The notes under the pieces: generated by a model | Database searches by the model: none | Seen by the model: the letters and a program-made list of their open reading frames with translations, nothing else | What the model was told of the DNA's origin: nothing | DNA from: Treponema sp. | GTDB lineage: Bacteria > Spirochaetota > Spirochaetia > Treponematales > Breznakiellaceae | DNA length: 33,350 nt | Assembly (NCBI GenBank): GCA_031258505.1 | Contig: JAIRMT010000038.1 | Coordinates: forward strand, 1-33,350 | Direction: 5' to 3' | In this document: positions 12,903-32,921 of the stretch, one piece after another | Layout: every line of letters begins with the position of its first letter | Position numbering within the stretch: the first letter of the stretch is position 1 | Program-made: the position numbers and the translations under genes

Positions 12903-13139
12903 ACTAAACTCATAAAGAACAGAGAGCTTTCAAATCGTTAAAAAACGACCGCGTAAAGGATGGCGGCTCACCAAAGACAGGGTCGGCTCTTATGCTTTCC
13001 CTGGCGAGGATTTTCGCCGCACTGCTGCAAACCGTTCTCGGACCTTTCTACAGAACCTTCGTAGAACTCTACTAAAGTTTCGTAGAACATCGCCTAAAAG
13101 ACTGGATTCTACAAAATCCAAAGAAAAAGGGGTAAGATT
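12903..13139. other. Intergenic stretch with no supported gene
   Basis: About 240 bp without a credible ORF. The word TTCGTAGAAC occurs twice near 13047 and 13079 with further CTACA/GTAGA words around it, giving small imperfect hairpins. A GGGGTAAGATT sequence before 13140 may serve as the ribosome binding site of the following fragment. Confidence 0.4.
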
Positions 13140-13481
13140 ATGGCTGGAGATTTCATTCCTCATCAGGACGGGGTTTTTGGGGAGTGGGCGAAGACGCTTT
13201 TGGCGTATATACCGCCCAAATTGACGGTTTTTAACATTCCGCAGACGGCGGGAATGTGGTTAGATTTGGGCGGGCAGACGCAATTTGATATGATAAACCT
13301 TGATGCGGGAAATTGGACTGATTATCCTAAAAAGTATAAAGTTAGTGTATCAAATGACGGTGTCAGTTTTACAGATATAGAAACTGACACCTCAGACATC
13401 GGGTTTGGACAGAAAGTTATCTTATACCCTGTAAGCTGTTCCAGTAATTCCCGGTACGGCTCCCTTCTGCCAGCGCGATGA
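13140..13481 (+). pseudogene. Chimeric fragment: N-terminus of a Treponema-type repeat family joined to part of a discoidin (F5/8C) domain
   Basis: The 113-residue frame starts MAGDFIPHQDGVFGEWAKTL and continues LLAYIPPKLTVFNIPQ. That resembles the start of the protein at 30908-31561 (WVKSLLAYVQVHLTAFNIQ). From about residue 38 it switches to MWLDLGGQTQFDMINLDAGN and KKYKVSVSNDGVSFTDIET, the first strands of an F5/8 type C carbohydrate-binding domain. The domain stops near residue 92, and the last residues look out of frame. On the opposite strand, 13417-13519 reads like a separate coding remnant (KLIALAEGSRTGNYWNSL). It is best seen as a gene broken by recombination next to the GH42 gene, or a very small surviving protein. 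Confidence 0.55.
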
Positions 13482-20523: not shown

Positions 20524-20757
20524 TTAACCATAGTTAAGAGATTCTCTTAACTATGGCTTAGAGACCATCTTAACTACGCTTAAGAGATGCTCTTAACTAC
20601 GCTTAAGAGACCATCTTAACTATGCTTAAGAGACGCTCTTAACTATGGTTAAGAGACGCTCTTAACTACGCTTAAGAAACAATCTTAACTATGGCTTAGA
20701 AAGAATCTTAACTATGGCTTAGAGAGAATCTTAAGAGATGCTCTTAACTATGCTTAA
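20524..20757. repeat. 23-bp tandem repeat array of palindromic units
   Basis: About nine units of 23 bp run from 20546, the clearest containing CTCTTAAC-TATG-GTTAAGAG as a perfect palindrome. Units differ mainly at two places: TAYG[GC] in the centre and a 3-4 base variable end (CCAT, TGCT, CGCT, AGAAT). One unit is shortened to 13 bp near 20730. The left end (20524-20557) is itself a long palindrome, CCATAGTTAAGAGA and its complement. It lies in the gap between divergent oadG and gltB and encodes no protein. Confidence 0.85.
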
Positions 20758-21070
20758 CCTACCGACGGCAGCGCCGTGAGCCTAAACACGGTTTCAGGTT
20801 GTTCCTCCCGTGTTGGTAATCCAGCATCGACTGGCGCTGAAAGAAAATACGCCGAAGGCGCTTTTCACGACAGCGGCGATGCTGCAGCGTTCATTGCGTC
20901 CGGGTCGCCTTGGAATCAGGCATTTGTTCGCGCTCCCGGCTAAACGTCTCTATGAGTCTCTTAAAGATTCCCTGTCCCATGCCTCTGGTTAGCATGAAAT
21001 CTCGATACTTTGAATTGCTGGTTGAACAGTCTGAAGGTTTTGCCGCGCTTGATTTGGGCGTTTGGGTCTG
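20758..21070. other. Intergenic stretch before the gltB promoter
   Basis: About 300 bp without a confident gene. A 55-codon frame from GTG 20776 to 20943 (RKYAEGAFHDSGDAAAFIAS) and a 26-codon frame from ATG 20994 (MKSRYFELLVEQSEGFAALD) both have protein-like composition and may be gene remnants. The 17-base word GATACTTTGAATTGCTG at 21003 also occurs inverted at about 20383-20399. Confidence 0.4.
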
Positions 21071-27277: not shown

Positions 27278-29559
27278 TTAGGTCCCTCCTTGTTGAGCCA
27301 TAATGATAACGCTGGCAGCGCCTGTATCAGTAGCAACAGGCGCTGCCAACTCGTAGGTTCCCGATTCCCGCGCATTGGGGTATAGCCTGACGAAGTTCGC
27401 CCTCTATTGCCGCTCCATCCCAATACCATACGTAAGCGTTGTACCGCTGCCAATGGAGAACACTGCCGCCTTGGTTCACGAGTAGGAGCGCGCTGGAAAG
27501 CGGGAGCTTGTCCCATGCGGGCTGCAGGCTTACTTGAACGGAATCCTCGACTATCCATTTGGCGTATACCGTTATATTCGCGCTTACCGTGCTTGCCGCA
27601 GTAAACGCTGTGCCGCCGCCGTTCCGCTCCGTATACCGGCCGTCAAAGGTGTAGCCGCTCCTGGTCGGCGCAGGCGGGATTATGAAACTGCCCGCGTCAG
27701 CGCTTGATACCTTAAACCACGCGCAATCCGAGCCTGAGCTTATCGAGGCGTTCTTCTGATACCCTATCTCGACAAAATGATCGCCCGCCGTTGGAACAGG
27801 TATCGTTACGCTTACTGATTCCGTGCCGGATACTTTGCTGTTGGTATAATAACCGCTCTCGTATGTGGCGGAATCGTTGTCCAGCGTGCTGACAAAGGCA
27901 TAGTCCAACCCTGATTCCGAAGACACATCAAGCTGTATGCTTATGGAGGCGCTATCCGCCGCGCTAGTAAAGTCGATCCGCGACTTGGTTATGCCGCGGT
28001 GGGCAATGGCGGGAGATTTGCGTCTGCCGTCGTTTTCTAAGGCCCACGCGCTGCCTGAAACAGAGCTATACACGGATATTGCGGATTACGCCGCTGTTCA
28101 CCGTCAAGGTACGCGTGGCAGGCGTTCCCCCGTCCGCGTCAAACGTTACGGTGTATTGATCCACCCAGCCGCCCTCAGCTTCGCCTAAAGAGCTGTTCAG
28201 GGTAACGCCGGGTCCAGCCGTGCTGTTGCGCTTCTTGCCTCCAGACTCGACATAGACCGCGTGGCCGCGAGCATCGCTGCTGGCGGTGTTTTTCAGCGCG
28301 CCGCTTGCATCCGACCCGTAAATGGTTCCGCCCGACTCCTTGGTAAACGTCCCGTCCACATACGCCCCGTTGATATACGTTCTGCCCACATACACCCCGC
28401 CGCCGGAGTAGCCGGTGTTTCCGCTGATTGTCCCGCCGCTCATCGTAAACGTCCCGTTACCTATATACATCCCGCCGCCGGAGTTGCCGGTGTTTCCGCT
28501 GATTGCCCCGCCGCTCATCGTAAACGTCCCATTACCCACATACATCCCGCCGCCGGAGTAGCCGGTATTTCCGCTGATTACTCCGCCGCTCATCGTAAAC
28601 CTCCCGTAATTCACATACACCCCGCCGCCGGAGTAGAAGGAGGATGCGGATGCGGTGTTTCCGCTGATTGCTCCGCCGTTCATCGTAAACGTCCCGTTAT
28701 ATACATACACCCCGCCGCCGGAGTAGGAGGAAGATGCGGATGCGGTGTTGCCGCTGATTGCCCCGCCGTTCATCGTAAACGTCCCGCCATACACAAACAC
28801 CCCGCCGCTGGAGGAGGAGGAGGAGCCGGAGTACTGGTAGTCCCAGACGGTGTTAGTGTTGCCGGTAATCTTCGATCCGCTCTCCATGATCAGAGTTCCC
28901 CCACTGTTCACCCGTACAAGCGACTTCGTATTGTCGCTCCGGCCCAGCAAGGTAACATTGTTTCCGAGCGTCAGGGTTACGCCGCTTTCTACGGTGAAGA
29001 GCGAGCCACTCGAATTCAAGCGGACGCTCCGTTCCGCCGCGTCGCCTTTAATGGTCAGGCTAAACGCTCTTCCCCCATAAAGCGACTTAGGTCCAAAGGA
29101 CTCATCCGCGCTTACGGTAATGGTATAGTCCCCGCCTTCCGCCGCGTGTGAAGCAAGCCAGGTGAGTGATTCCTCAAGCGATAGGTTGGAAGGCAAAGGC
29201 TCCACCCACCTGGCGTACACCGTTATATTCGCGTTTACCGTCGTATCCGCAGTAAACCGTGAGCCGCCGCCATTCCGCGAAGTCCACCAGCTACCGAAGG
29301 CGTAGCCGCTCTTGGTCGGAACCGTCGGCATATTTGACCCCAGCGAAGCGCCCCTGTTCACAGTCTTGGTCTGTGCAGCAGGCGTTCCCCCGTCCGCGTC
29401 AAACGTTACGGTATACTGCTTAACCGTGCCATCCGGGTTGTTCTCAGTCGAGCCTTCCGGGTGAAACAAGTCCTTGCACCCGACAAGCATGACCGCGCAC
29501 ACGCACAGAACCATTCCAAATAACGCCGCCATGAGCGCGGCGCGTGTTGGCTTACTCAT
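27278..29559 (-). pseudogene. Frameshifted repeat-rich surface lipoprotein (InlB-type and GGVYV-type repeats)
   Basis: The first frame (29559-28066, 497 residues) begins with a signal peptide and lipobox VMLVGCKD, then an InlB-like beta-repeat (TVTFDADGGTPA...ITVYARW), a beta-helix-like region and six copies of a 25-30 residue unit around GTFTMSGGAISGNT. A second InlB-like repeat starts, then the frame breaks near 28075 and stops. The next frame (to 27327) resumes with SSVSGSAWALENDGRRKSPA and a third ITVYAKW repeat. A second break near 27400 moves the end to yet another frame (NFVRLYPNARESGTYELAAP...QQGGT, stop 27278). Together the three frames give one surface protein of about 760 residues, so two indels have inactivated it. 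Such proteins are common in treponemes and of unknown function. Confidence 0.75.
28388..28830 (-). repeat. In-gene tandem repeats of 75 and 90 bp encoding GTFTMSGG units
   Basis: The word TACA[CT]CCCGCCGCCGGAG recurs at 28391, 28466, 28541, 28616, 28706 and, in altered form, 28796: three spacings of 75 bp and two of 90 bp. All are multiples of three, so unit gain or loss keeps the frame. The 90-bp units have an added Ser/Ala/Tyr segment. The repeats lie in the first frame of the pseudogene. Confidence 0.85.
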
Positions 29560-30907: not shown

Positions 30908-31561
30908 TTACGGCACGACCGCGCTCACAAGCGCGCCCCAGGGACCCTTCTCCCCCTTGTTATTCTCCCAGCGCAGGCAGAAGTACACTCTTTTTCCCTG
31001 TTTATCCCCGGTAAACACGAAGACATGAGGCGTCCGGGTAGCGAATTCCGAATTGAGCAAGTCCTCAGCCTTTGCCGGCGCGTCCTCTCGCAGTTCCCAG
31101 CGAATCTCCGCGCCGTGTACGCCTTTAGGCTTTCCCCGCTGCTTGGTTCCCGCATCCCAGAACTGCAGGGATAGCTGATTAGGAACCGGCGTATCAATGT
31201 GATACTCCGGGAACGTACTGGGCGGCGGCACGGGCGTGGGCTTCCTGTCATGAATTGGCAGCTGCATCTCATTCCGTTCCTTGTCGCTGACGAACGGGCT
31301 GTATAGCAGAAACGCCTTGATGAAGGCGCGCAGCGCCTTTTCCAGCGCCTCCCTCGCGCGGTTTTTCTCCGCGATGTCCACCGGACCCCTATTGGGGTTC
31401 AGGGCTTTGGCGTAGGCTGCTTCCCAGTCCGCGTTCAACGCCAGAATTGGTTGAAAAACCGCGTCTTGAATGTTAAACGCCGTAAGATGAACTTGCACAT
31501 AAGCGAGCAAGCTCTTGACCCATGCCGCGAATGCGGCATCCTTTGTAGGCACGTAAGCCAT
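30908..31561 (-). CDS. Treponema-type hypothetical protein with Fn3-like C-terminal domain
   Basis: A 217-residue product. AAGGAGG lies six bases before ATG 31561, which I prefer to the adjacent TTG at 31564. The first 100 residues are helical (WVKSLLAYVQVHLTAFNIQ, EKNRAREALEKALRAFIKAF), then comes a Pro-rich linker (DRKPTPVPPPSTFPEYHID) and a beta-rich domain with VHGAEIRWEL, VYFCLRWENN and KGPWGALVSAVVP, like a fibronectin type III fold. No signal peptide is visible. This family is repeated in treponeme genomes (from memory) and its N-terminus is shared with the broken gene at 13140. Its role is unknown. It lies directly after the 21-bp repeat array. Confidence 0.65.
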   Translation of the reverse strand: MAYVPTKDAAFAAWVKSLLAYVQVHLTAFNIQDAVFQPILALNADWEAAYAKALNPNRGPVDIAEKNRAREALEKALRAFIKAFLLYSPFVSDKERNEMQLPIHDRKPTPVPPPSTFPEYHIDTPVPNQLSLQFWDAGTKQRGKPKGVHGAEIRWELREDAPAKAEDLLNSEFATRTPHVFVFTGDKQGKRVYFCLRWENNKGEKGPWGALVSAVVP

Positions 31562-32345
31562 CAAATACCTCCTTGGTAATAAGTTGTGCTATTATGCTCA
31601 TAGTGAGAGCCGCTCCGGTTGTAGCGGGTAAGGCTCTCACTGTAGTAGCAGCCGTTCTGGTTGTAGCGGGAACCTTTCCCGCTGTAGTGGGAGAGTCTCC
31701 CGCTGTAGTAGGAGCTGCTCTGGCTGTAGCGGGAACCTTTCCCGCTGTAGTAGGAGAGTCTCCGGTTGTAGCGGGAACCTTTCCCGCTGTAGTAGGAGAG
31801 TCTCCCGCTGTAGTAGGGACCGCTCCGGCTGTAGCTGGAACCTTTCCCGCTGTAGTAGGAGAGTCTCCGGTTGTAGCGGGAACCTTTCCCGCTGTGGCAG
31901 GAGCCGCTCCCGCTGTAGTGGGAGAGTCTCCCACTGTAGTAGGGACCGCTCCGGCTGTAGCTGGAACCTTTCCCGCTGTAGTAGGAGAGTCTCCCTCTGT
32001 AGTAGGAGCCGCTCCGGTTGTAGTAGGAGAGTCTCTGGTTGTAGCGGGAACCTTTCCCGCTGTAGTAGGAGCCGCTCCTGTTGTAGCGGGAACCTTTCCC
32101 GCTGTGGTGGGAAACTCTAGCGCTATCGTGAGGAAGTTTCTCGCTATTGTAGTAAGAAAGGCTCCAGCCATAGCGAGGAATTTGCTGGCTATGGCGCGAA
32201 AATTGTGGAACAGAGCGCCCATATACAAAACATTTCTTGAATAGACCGGTTCTTTTTCCACCAAGTAATTCATCCAGCTTTGCATCAACGCGTTTATTGA
32301 GAAAAAATATGCTATCGAGGGAAAAACAGCGATTAAATCCGCCAT
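31473..32345 (-). CDS. ORF spanning the 21-bp repeat array (heptapeptide-repeat protein)
   Basis: A 290-codon frame. The first 90 residues are unique (MADLIAVFPSIAYFFSINAL, MQSWMNYLVEKEPVYSRNVL), then about 25 heptads such as TAGKVPATTGDSPTTAG, then a unique end that overlaps the next gene by 89 bp in another frame. The plus strand is also open (31573-32244), because the unit is 21 bp and largely palindromic, so openness is weak evidence of coding. The unique N-terminus makes the minus strand more credible. A C12 tract and TATAAT abut the start codon, suggesting phase-variable expression. A non-coding array is the alternative. Confidence 0.4.
   Translation of the reverse strand: MADLIAVFPSIAYFFSINALMQSWMNYLVEKEPVYSRNVLYMGALFHNFRAIASKFLAMAGAFLTTIARNFLTIALEFPTTAGKVPATTGAAPTTAGKVPATTRDSPTTTGAAPTTEGDSPTTAGKVPATAGAVPTTVGDSPTTAGAAPATAGKVPATTGDSPTTAGKVPATAGAVPTTAGDSPTTAGKVPATTGDSPTTAGKVPATARAAPTTAGDSPTTAGKVPATTRTAATTVRALPATTGAALTMSIIAQLITKEVFDGLRAYKGCRIRGMGQELARLCASSSYGV
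31600..32187. repeat. 21-bp tandem repeat array with three palindromic core types
   Basis: From 31600 to 32124 there are 25 uninterrupted 21-bp units, then degenerate ones to about 32187 (one unit 24 bp). Most begin GTAGYRGG. The core is GGGAACCTTTCCC, GGAGAGTCTCC or GGAGCCGCTCC, each an inverted repeat, and the three types are mixed in a quasi-regular order. Arms change together, for example GGGAGA with TCTCCC beside GGAG with CTCC. Read as protein it gives heptads on both strands. Confidence 0.9.
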
Positions 32346-32361
32346 TATAGGGGGGGGGGGG
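32344..32361 (-). promoter_or_regulatory. C12 tract abutting TATAAT and the start of the repeat ORF
   Basis: On the plus strand 32350-32361 is twelve G in a row; on the minus strand this is C12 followed at once by TATAAT (32349-32344), which overlaps the ATG at 32345. The tract can act as the spacer between this -10 and a weak upstream -35, as known for poly-C/poly-G promoters in Neisseria, or as a slippery stretch joining two reading frames. In both cases a change of one base would switch output. Confidence 0.6.
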
Positions 32362-32581
32362 CGTTAGGAATATAATGATTACAGTACGAGAGGAGATTAG
32401 CTCTAAAAAAATGTTTCATCCCCCTTACTAAAGGCATAGACCCTCCCTTCAGACTGAATAGCGCACCGAAACACAGCCGCCAAAACCTGCCAAGCGCTTC
32501 ATCCCGCGAGCAATTCGCCGCCCGCCAACCTTCTTGGGGAGTCAGAGTGTACACTAGCCTATAACATTCTTCACTATTCAT
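32345..32581 (-). CDS. Short ORF reading into the poly-C tract
   Basis: A 78-codon frame that passes through the C12 tract (NAPPPL) and stops at TAA overlapping the ATG of the repeat ORF. Internal start MPLVRGMKHFFRANLLSY has GGGAGGG before it and may be the real beginning. With one extra C (13) the frame would continue into the repeat ORF and give a fusion. No family is recognised. The composition is not clearly protein-like in the first half. Confidence 0.3.
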   Translation of the reverse strand: MNSEECYRLVYTLTPQEGWRAANCSRDEALGRFWRLCFGALFSLKGGSMPLVRGMKHFFRANLLSYCNHYIPNAPPPL

Positions 32582-32638: not shown

Positions 32639-32732
32639 GTGTCTGGCGCCATGACGAACCGGTGTCAGAACCGCAAACCAGTGGTGTCTGGCGCCGATAG
32701 CCGTATGCGGCAAACCTGTGATGTCTGACACC
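32639..32732. repeat. Cluster of GGTGTC-type palindromic words
   Basis: Four related words lie in 94 bp: AGTGTCTGGCGCC (32639-32651), GGTGTCAGAACC (32661-32672), GGTGTCTGGCGCC (32683-32695) and GATGTCTGACACC (32720-32732). The perfect form GGTGTC-T-GACACC is at 8781-8793. They lie upstream of the poly-C locus and downstream of the J-domain gene and may be protein binding sites or remnants of a dispersed element. Confidence 0.5.
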
Positions 32733-32921
32733 AGCTATGGTGAACGCCACAGTGGTTAGGCATGAGGAATTGTTACTACCTCATGTTACGCAGGAAGAAA
32801 AAACGGTAAGAATTTGTCATCGAAGGGACGCTAAGATACGCGAATATTTCATTTCTCTAAAGAAGATTCGCGTTCATTCGCGTAATTCGATGATCTTTTT
32901 CTTTCCGGCGCGTAAGGCGAG
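32733..32921. other. Short intergenic stretch without a recognised gene
   Basis: About 190 bp between the palindrome cluster and the J-domain gene. One frame is open but its content is not protein-like. AAAGAAGATTCGCGTTCATT and similar words give a weak imperfect dyad (GAATATT/GATTCGCG), without a T-run. Confidence 0.35.

Follow-up and report, generated by a model that had tools for sequence, protein, structure and literature searches.

An array of palindromic 21-bp repeats in a draft Treponema genome lies directly upstream of a gene for a protein with a predicted fibronectin-III domain, and arrays of this kind are a property of the paralogous gene family to which this gene belongs, the period of 21 bp being their most conserved feature; neither point had been part of the preliminary description of this DNA. 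Within orthogroups the period, the position and a frequent dyad symmetry are kept while copy number and sequence turn over, a pattern suggestive of a DNA control element of a type not recognised so far. The window, that is, the whole stretch of 33,350 nucleotides that was analysed, is contig 72 in a 191-contig draft Treponema MAG (2.06 Mb, 69% complete), a genome that was examined by stretches. Among named genomes the closest to it are MAGs of Treponema and Spirochaetaceae, which we take to come from termite-gut samples. Nearly all of the compared genomes are draft MAGs, and the unit numbers given below are rough because arrays may break or collapse in such assemblies.

The array was found where the preliminary description had placed it (31600-32187), and its locus comprises the following features.

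31604 to 32107, no strand assigned: 21-bp array of 24 contiguous units in one register, each with a stem-loop core and the constant spacer TGTAG (from the sequence).
32108 to 32200 (end approximate), no strand assigned: decayed continuation of the array on the side away from the gene, about four units (by eye).
31562 to 31603, minus strand: 42-bp gap between the array and the start codon, with the Shine-Dalgarno sequence AAGGAGG at about 31568-31574 (from the sequence).
30908 to 31561, minus strand: downstream gene of a large paralogous family, 217 aa from its ATG, with an N-terminal helical bundle and a C-terminal fibronectin-III domain (ORF, AlphaFold2, Foldseek).

Each unit is exactly 21 bp long and the units follow one another head-to-tail in a single register. 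Three core types (GGGAACCTTTCCC, GGAGAGTCTCC, GGAGCCGCTCC) and their variants alternate, as described earlier, with about eight units each; in all of them positions 3-7 pair with 9-13 and the spacer is TGTAG. The earlier figure of 25 or more units is reached only when decayed units are added to the 24 clear ones. A CRISPR array was rejected as a candidate, the units being contiguous, the sequence between stems constant (TGTAG) and unique spacers absent. The array had no match in Rfam and no relative was found in plasmids, and a literature search on such arrays returned nothing relevant. An intergenic run of about 13 G (32349-32362), a type of tract that can change length, adjoins the array.

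The symmetry of the window array is significant when compared with column-permuted units (z 4.8, p 0.003). Over the 17 distinct units, 89.4% of the cells of the inner five pairs are paired (shuffled mean 81.9%) and nine cells are changed on both sides (shuffled mean 5.0), values as high being reached in 1 of 500 shuffles in either case, and pairing drops when whole right arms are permuted between units (p = 0.002); as the units are copies of one another, these within-array p-values are not counts of independent events. Slid pairing registers are clearly worse than the chosen one. Repeated covariation is confined to the inner pairs 6-10 (G-C/A-T) and 7-9 (C-G/A-T); most variants of pairs 3 and 5 are G-T and the outer pair 2-14 is mostly broken. 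The proposal that each unit is its own palindrome with arms that change together is thus borne out as to the dyad and the excess of compensated changes, but only two pairs covary repeatedly.

The start codon of the downstream gene lies 42 bp from the array and is preceded by a good Shine-Dalgarno sequence. For the protein of 217 aa, AlphaFold2 predicted helices in the N-terminal part and a sandwich at the C-terminus (mean pLDDT 78.8, pTM 0.44), and Foldseek related the sandwich to fibronectin-III domains (best E 3.9e-5). No meaningful match was obtained from Pfam, NCBIfam or PHROGs, a search of the PDB by sequence gave nothing convincing, and no relatives were found in phages or plasmids. The family is large, with 28 matches in the partial window genome and up to 41 in its relatives; in a wider sample of the phylum, 4 of 296 genomes, the window genome among them, contain a match at E 1e-8; a Bacteroidales MAG also has a member (locus L174). 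A further member occurs in the window, next to a short repeat.

13047 to 13088, no strand assigned: 21-bp repeat TCTACAAAACCTTCGTAGAAC in two units, left over from an element of this kind (repeat search).
13140 to 13481, plus strand: family member that directly follows this repeat; it has the shared N-terminus and matches F5/8-type-C weakly (ORF, profile match).

Tandem repeats of another type, 75 and 90 bp long and within a gene, are found at 28385-28824 of the window, in a minus-strand ORF (28066-29559) in which SGGAISGNT-type motifs recur.

Upstream sequence was taken for homologues in about 20 genomes, and the 82 loci with at least 200 bp of it were counted. Under a criterion of at least 60% identity over 63 bp, the best upstream repeat period is exactly 21 bp in 66 of these loci and 22 bp in one; two more show 21 bp beside a 14-bp signal, and 13 fall below the threshold, 21 still being the best lag in seven of them. 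The arrays comprise 3-23 units and end at a median distance of 83 bp (31-233) from the start codon. Association with the family was quantified in 393 kb of a related genome, G003, on the basis of simple ORF calls: a 21-bp array occurs within 300 bp upstream of 7 of 9 family genes and of 10 of 313 others (Fisher p 1e-8), on contigs that were chosen as carriers of family genes, a choice that affects the number of these genes and not the comparison of family with other genes. The density of repeat arrays is 9-15 per 100 kb in the sampled family-rich genomes, and no 21-bp array was detected in about 360 kb sampled from five family-free genomes (G013, G005, G017, G030, and G036). G031 and G025, which have some family genes, yielded one 21-bp array each, that of G031, a complete genome in a single contig, from a stretch picked for its family gene (locus L154). 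No remnants of lost family genes were found near the 21-bp arrays that lie away from the family. Perfect 7-bp tandem repeats (CCCGGCT, TCACGGC, CGGCTCC) were also seen farther upstream of family genes, often at contig ends (L081, at about -750 to -640; L089; L108; L177, positions 1-100).

In homologues with 65-95% protein identity the arrays are often still recognisable, with different unit numbers (10/17, 4/3, 7/12) and with about three or more of the 21 consensus positions changed; the copy-number differences come from comparisons of species (orthologues) or of recent paralogues. The orthologue of the window gene in G003, 78% identical, is preceded by unrelated, still palindromic units built on GGACGATCGTCC. 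A dyad at p ≤ 0.05 was detected in 33 of 68 homologous arrays against column-permuted units, with a combined p of 1e-26 that is too optimistic because the arrays are related to each other; in the remaining half or so the dyad is below significance. Pairing in even-centred arrays involves offsets 3-7 from the dyad, the central four positions being unpaired and variable. Symmetry is still more frequent among the 22-24-bp arrays at other places in these genomes (20 of 26), many of which were fetched by homology to one family and hence are not independent.

A period divisible by three raises the question of whether one strand of the array encodes a heptapeptide-repeat protein. Open frames of 223 and 290 aa cover the window array on its two strands, and the plus-strand frame matches Pfam PF21300 (ice-binding) above the cut-off (E 5.7e-14); the minus-strand frame, however, enters the downstream gene out of frame, and the PF21300 match is read as a chance spelling of the 21-mer because the orthologous array in G003 is unrelated in sequence. 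The variability of the columns was tested for a period of three in 64 arrays, and a single one reached p < 0.05 (combined p 0.99); heptapeptide coding is therefore not the general constraint. In a stop-codon test of 64-66 arrays open frames are only slightly commoner than in column-permuted arrays, and none of the six frames is open in the arrays of L090 and L175. As a general constraint coding was rejected by these two tests, and we regard a protein-coding array as very improbable, although the window array on its own may be translated. The array of the Bacteroidales locus L174 (upstream of 3001) is possibly a coding exception, since a coherent heptad frame (INDNIGN) is kept, by eye, even in its diverged units. 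The preliminary description had proposed selection on symmetry in addition to, or instead of, coding. The lack of a codon period and the recurrence of dyads in arrays of differing sequence speak in part for this view, with a constraint on symmetry rather than coding that may concern a hairpin or a protein site and may be kept by selection or by a mutational process. About half of the arrays have no significant dyad, and substitutions confined to codon positions with palindromes lost in relatives were not what the comparison revealed.

Such units could also derive from palindromic elements of the REP/BIME type, which RAYT (Y1) transposases amplify and disperse and which are tolerated between genes. 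The window unit, TGTAG with a short stem-loop, resembles published GTAG-tagged REPs (PMC2817692, PMC3733652), but GTAG is present in 9 of 68 array consensuses with 9.8 expected, and CGTC in 8 with 10.0 expected. RAYT-like genes number 6-11 in array-rich genomes, are lacking in several array-free ones and in some cases have arrays just downstream, and the window genome has six Y1_Tnp matches; against this, no RAYT hit was obtained in G008, G028, and G031, all of which contain 21-bp arrays (G008 and G028 being incomplete). Common to REPs and the present arrays are short intergenic stem-loops of 20-40 bp, compensated stem changes, the TGTAG tag of the window array and RAYT-like genes in the genome; a further likeness is seen in Thauera, where exopolysaccharide genes are flanked by arrays of GTAG-1 repeats whose stems have 5 bp. 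Most REP families have few or no head-to-tail dimers (PMC2817692, PMC3733652), whereas the present arrays are strictly head-to-tail at 21 bp and private to each gene, with a tag that is unconserved between homologous arrays. They also track the family genes by descent, and the window array is not dispersed, having one blast match in its own genome (69% complete) and none in 57 relatives. Membership of the window array among REPs was rejected for want of a conserved GTAG tag and of dispersal and because arrays occur in genomes with no RAYT hit, and an origin of this kind is considered improbable. The window contains, in addition, an array of a second class.

20531 to 20760, no strand assigned: array of 23-bp palindromic units (TTAAGAGACGCTCTTAACTATGG), intergenic, before a gltB-like gene; the same repeat family occurs at many places in the genome (repeat and homology search).

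Arrays of this class (22-24-bp palindromic units of the TTAAGAG...CTCTTAA type) are dispersed in the genome and often stand at contig ends; they were also seen at L065-L071, L074, L077, L078, and L100. With one common sequence at dispersed places, the 23-bp arrays may be REP-like. Several of the RAYT-like Y1 genes at L229-L248 are flanked on the 5' side by GTGTCAGACAC-like palindromes and have a 21- or 23-bp array no more than about 300 bp from the 3' end, and several GTGTCTGGCGCC / GTGTCTGACACC palindromes at 32640-32760 of the window are like those in the 5' flanks of RAYT-like genes.

In 17 of 67 loci, against about three expected, the interval from array to gene contains a sigma-70-like promoter (p ≤ 0.05), which would place the array upstream of the start site and outside that mRNA; no outstanding promoter was found in the 42-bp gap of the window locus. 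Antisense promoters reading into the array were predicted at 11 of 68 loci and sense promoters at 16 of 68. The position of the evident promoters argues against a transcribed array that acts through RNA hairpins, for example as an antisense RNA or a stabilising leader. The RNA of the window array folds far better than shuffles (z -13.3 for the plus strand, -10.6 for the minus strand), as expected of any inverted-repeat array, and one-sided changes mostly keep a G-U pair on the plus strand; over all arrays, however, the asymmetry of G-T and A-C changes on which RNA-level selection was judged, and rejected, is not significant (64 vs 80 events, p 0.21). Action at the level of RNA appears quite improbable.

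The explanation that we favour, tentatively and at somewhat less than an even chance, is that the array is a cis-acting DNA element of the downstream gene, composed of tandem operator-like dyad sites and usually located upstream of the promoter. Counted in its favour are the recurrent period of 21 bp, the association with family genes, the dyads, the promoters between array and gene, the copy-number differences between relatives and the absence of codon periodicity. The spacing of paired half-sites at 3-7 bp from the dyad in even-centred arrays puts the half-sites about 10 bp, or one helical turn, apart, and neighbouring units would be separated by 21 bp, or two turns; factors bound to the units would then be aligned on one face of the DNA. 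Such an array could tune or silence the fibronectin-III gene, and a change in its length might alter expression as at repeat-controlled promoters; protein binding, regulation and phase variation are inferred. Several points count against an operator: dozens of unrelated arrays are more than a single sequence-specific regulator could read, no clear promoter separates array and gene in the window locus, half of the arrays lack a significant dyad, 21-bp arrays occur off-family, palindromic 22-24-bp arrays are not helically phased and the period is possibly just inherited. The reader of the arrays would have to be a set of locus-specific dimers or a factor that senses shape. An element defined by geometry alone, with dozens of private-sequence and often dyad-symmetric 21-bp arrays per genome whose reader is either a factor specific for structure or a set of private regulators evolving along with them, is possible, if doubtful.

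The main rival is a neutral satellite, according to which a module of array and gene has been duplicated often, the period is inherited because a change of period cannot easily spread through an array, and symmetry arises by a mutational process such as quasi-palindrome correction in replication. The arrays of orthologues are related by descent, so that a fixed period needs no selection; the homogeneity of the units indicates rapid concerted turnover, and the off-family 22-24-bp arrays of the same genomes are palindromic too. A period of exactly 21 bp across genera and in the Bacteroidales MAG, even in arrays with no recognisable sequence kinship, and the strong preference of the arrays for the upstream side of family genes argue against this explanation, which is a serious contender but, in our view, an unlikely one.

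An operator-like element of this type would share features with known systems. The hmw genes of Haemophilus have phase-variable promoters with 7-bp tandem repeats upstream, and here, too, a variable number of tandem repeats precedes the promoters of paralogous genes, with the repeat tract at the median distance given above and a promoter-like site close by in about a quarter of the loci (not clear in the window); unlike the hmw repeats, the units here are 21 bp long, symmetric and different at each locus. With iterons and tandem operators the arrays have in common head-to-tail sites at about two helical turns, dyad symmetry and a position near the promoter. Iterons share one sequence that is read by one protein, whereas here many arrays per genome have unrelated sequences.

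Several sister arrays stand at contig ends, and arrays of this kind probably also break the assemblies of these genomes. If neutral, they would provide a clean system to study how bacterial satellite DNA acquires and keeps symmetry. If functional, they would represent cis-elements with complete turnover of sequence and a fixed period and position, often with symmetry, which motif searches would never see, and they would show by what means uncultured spirochaetes diversify the expression of a large fibronectin-type protein family.
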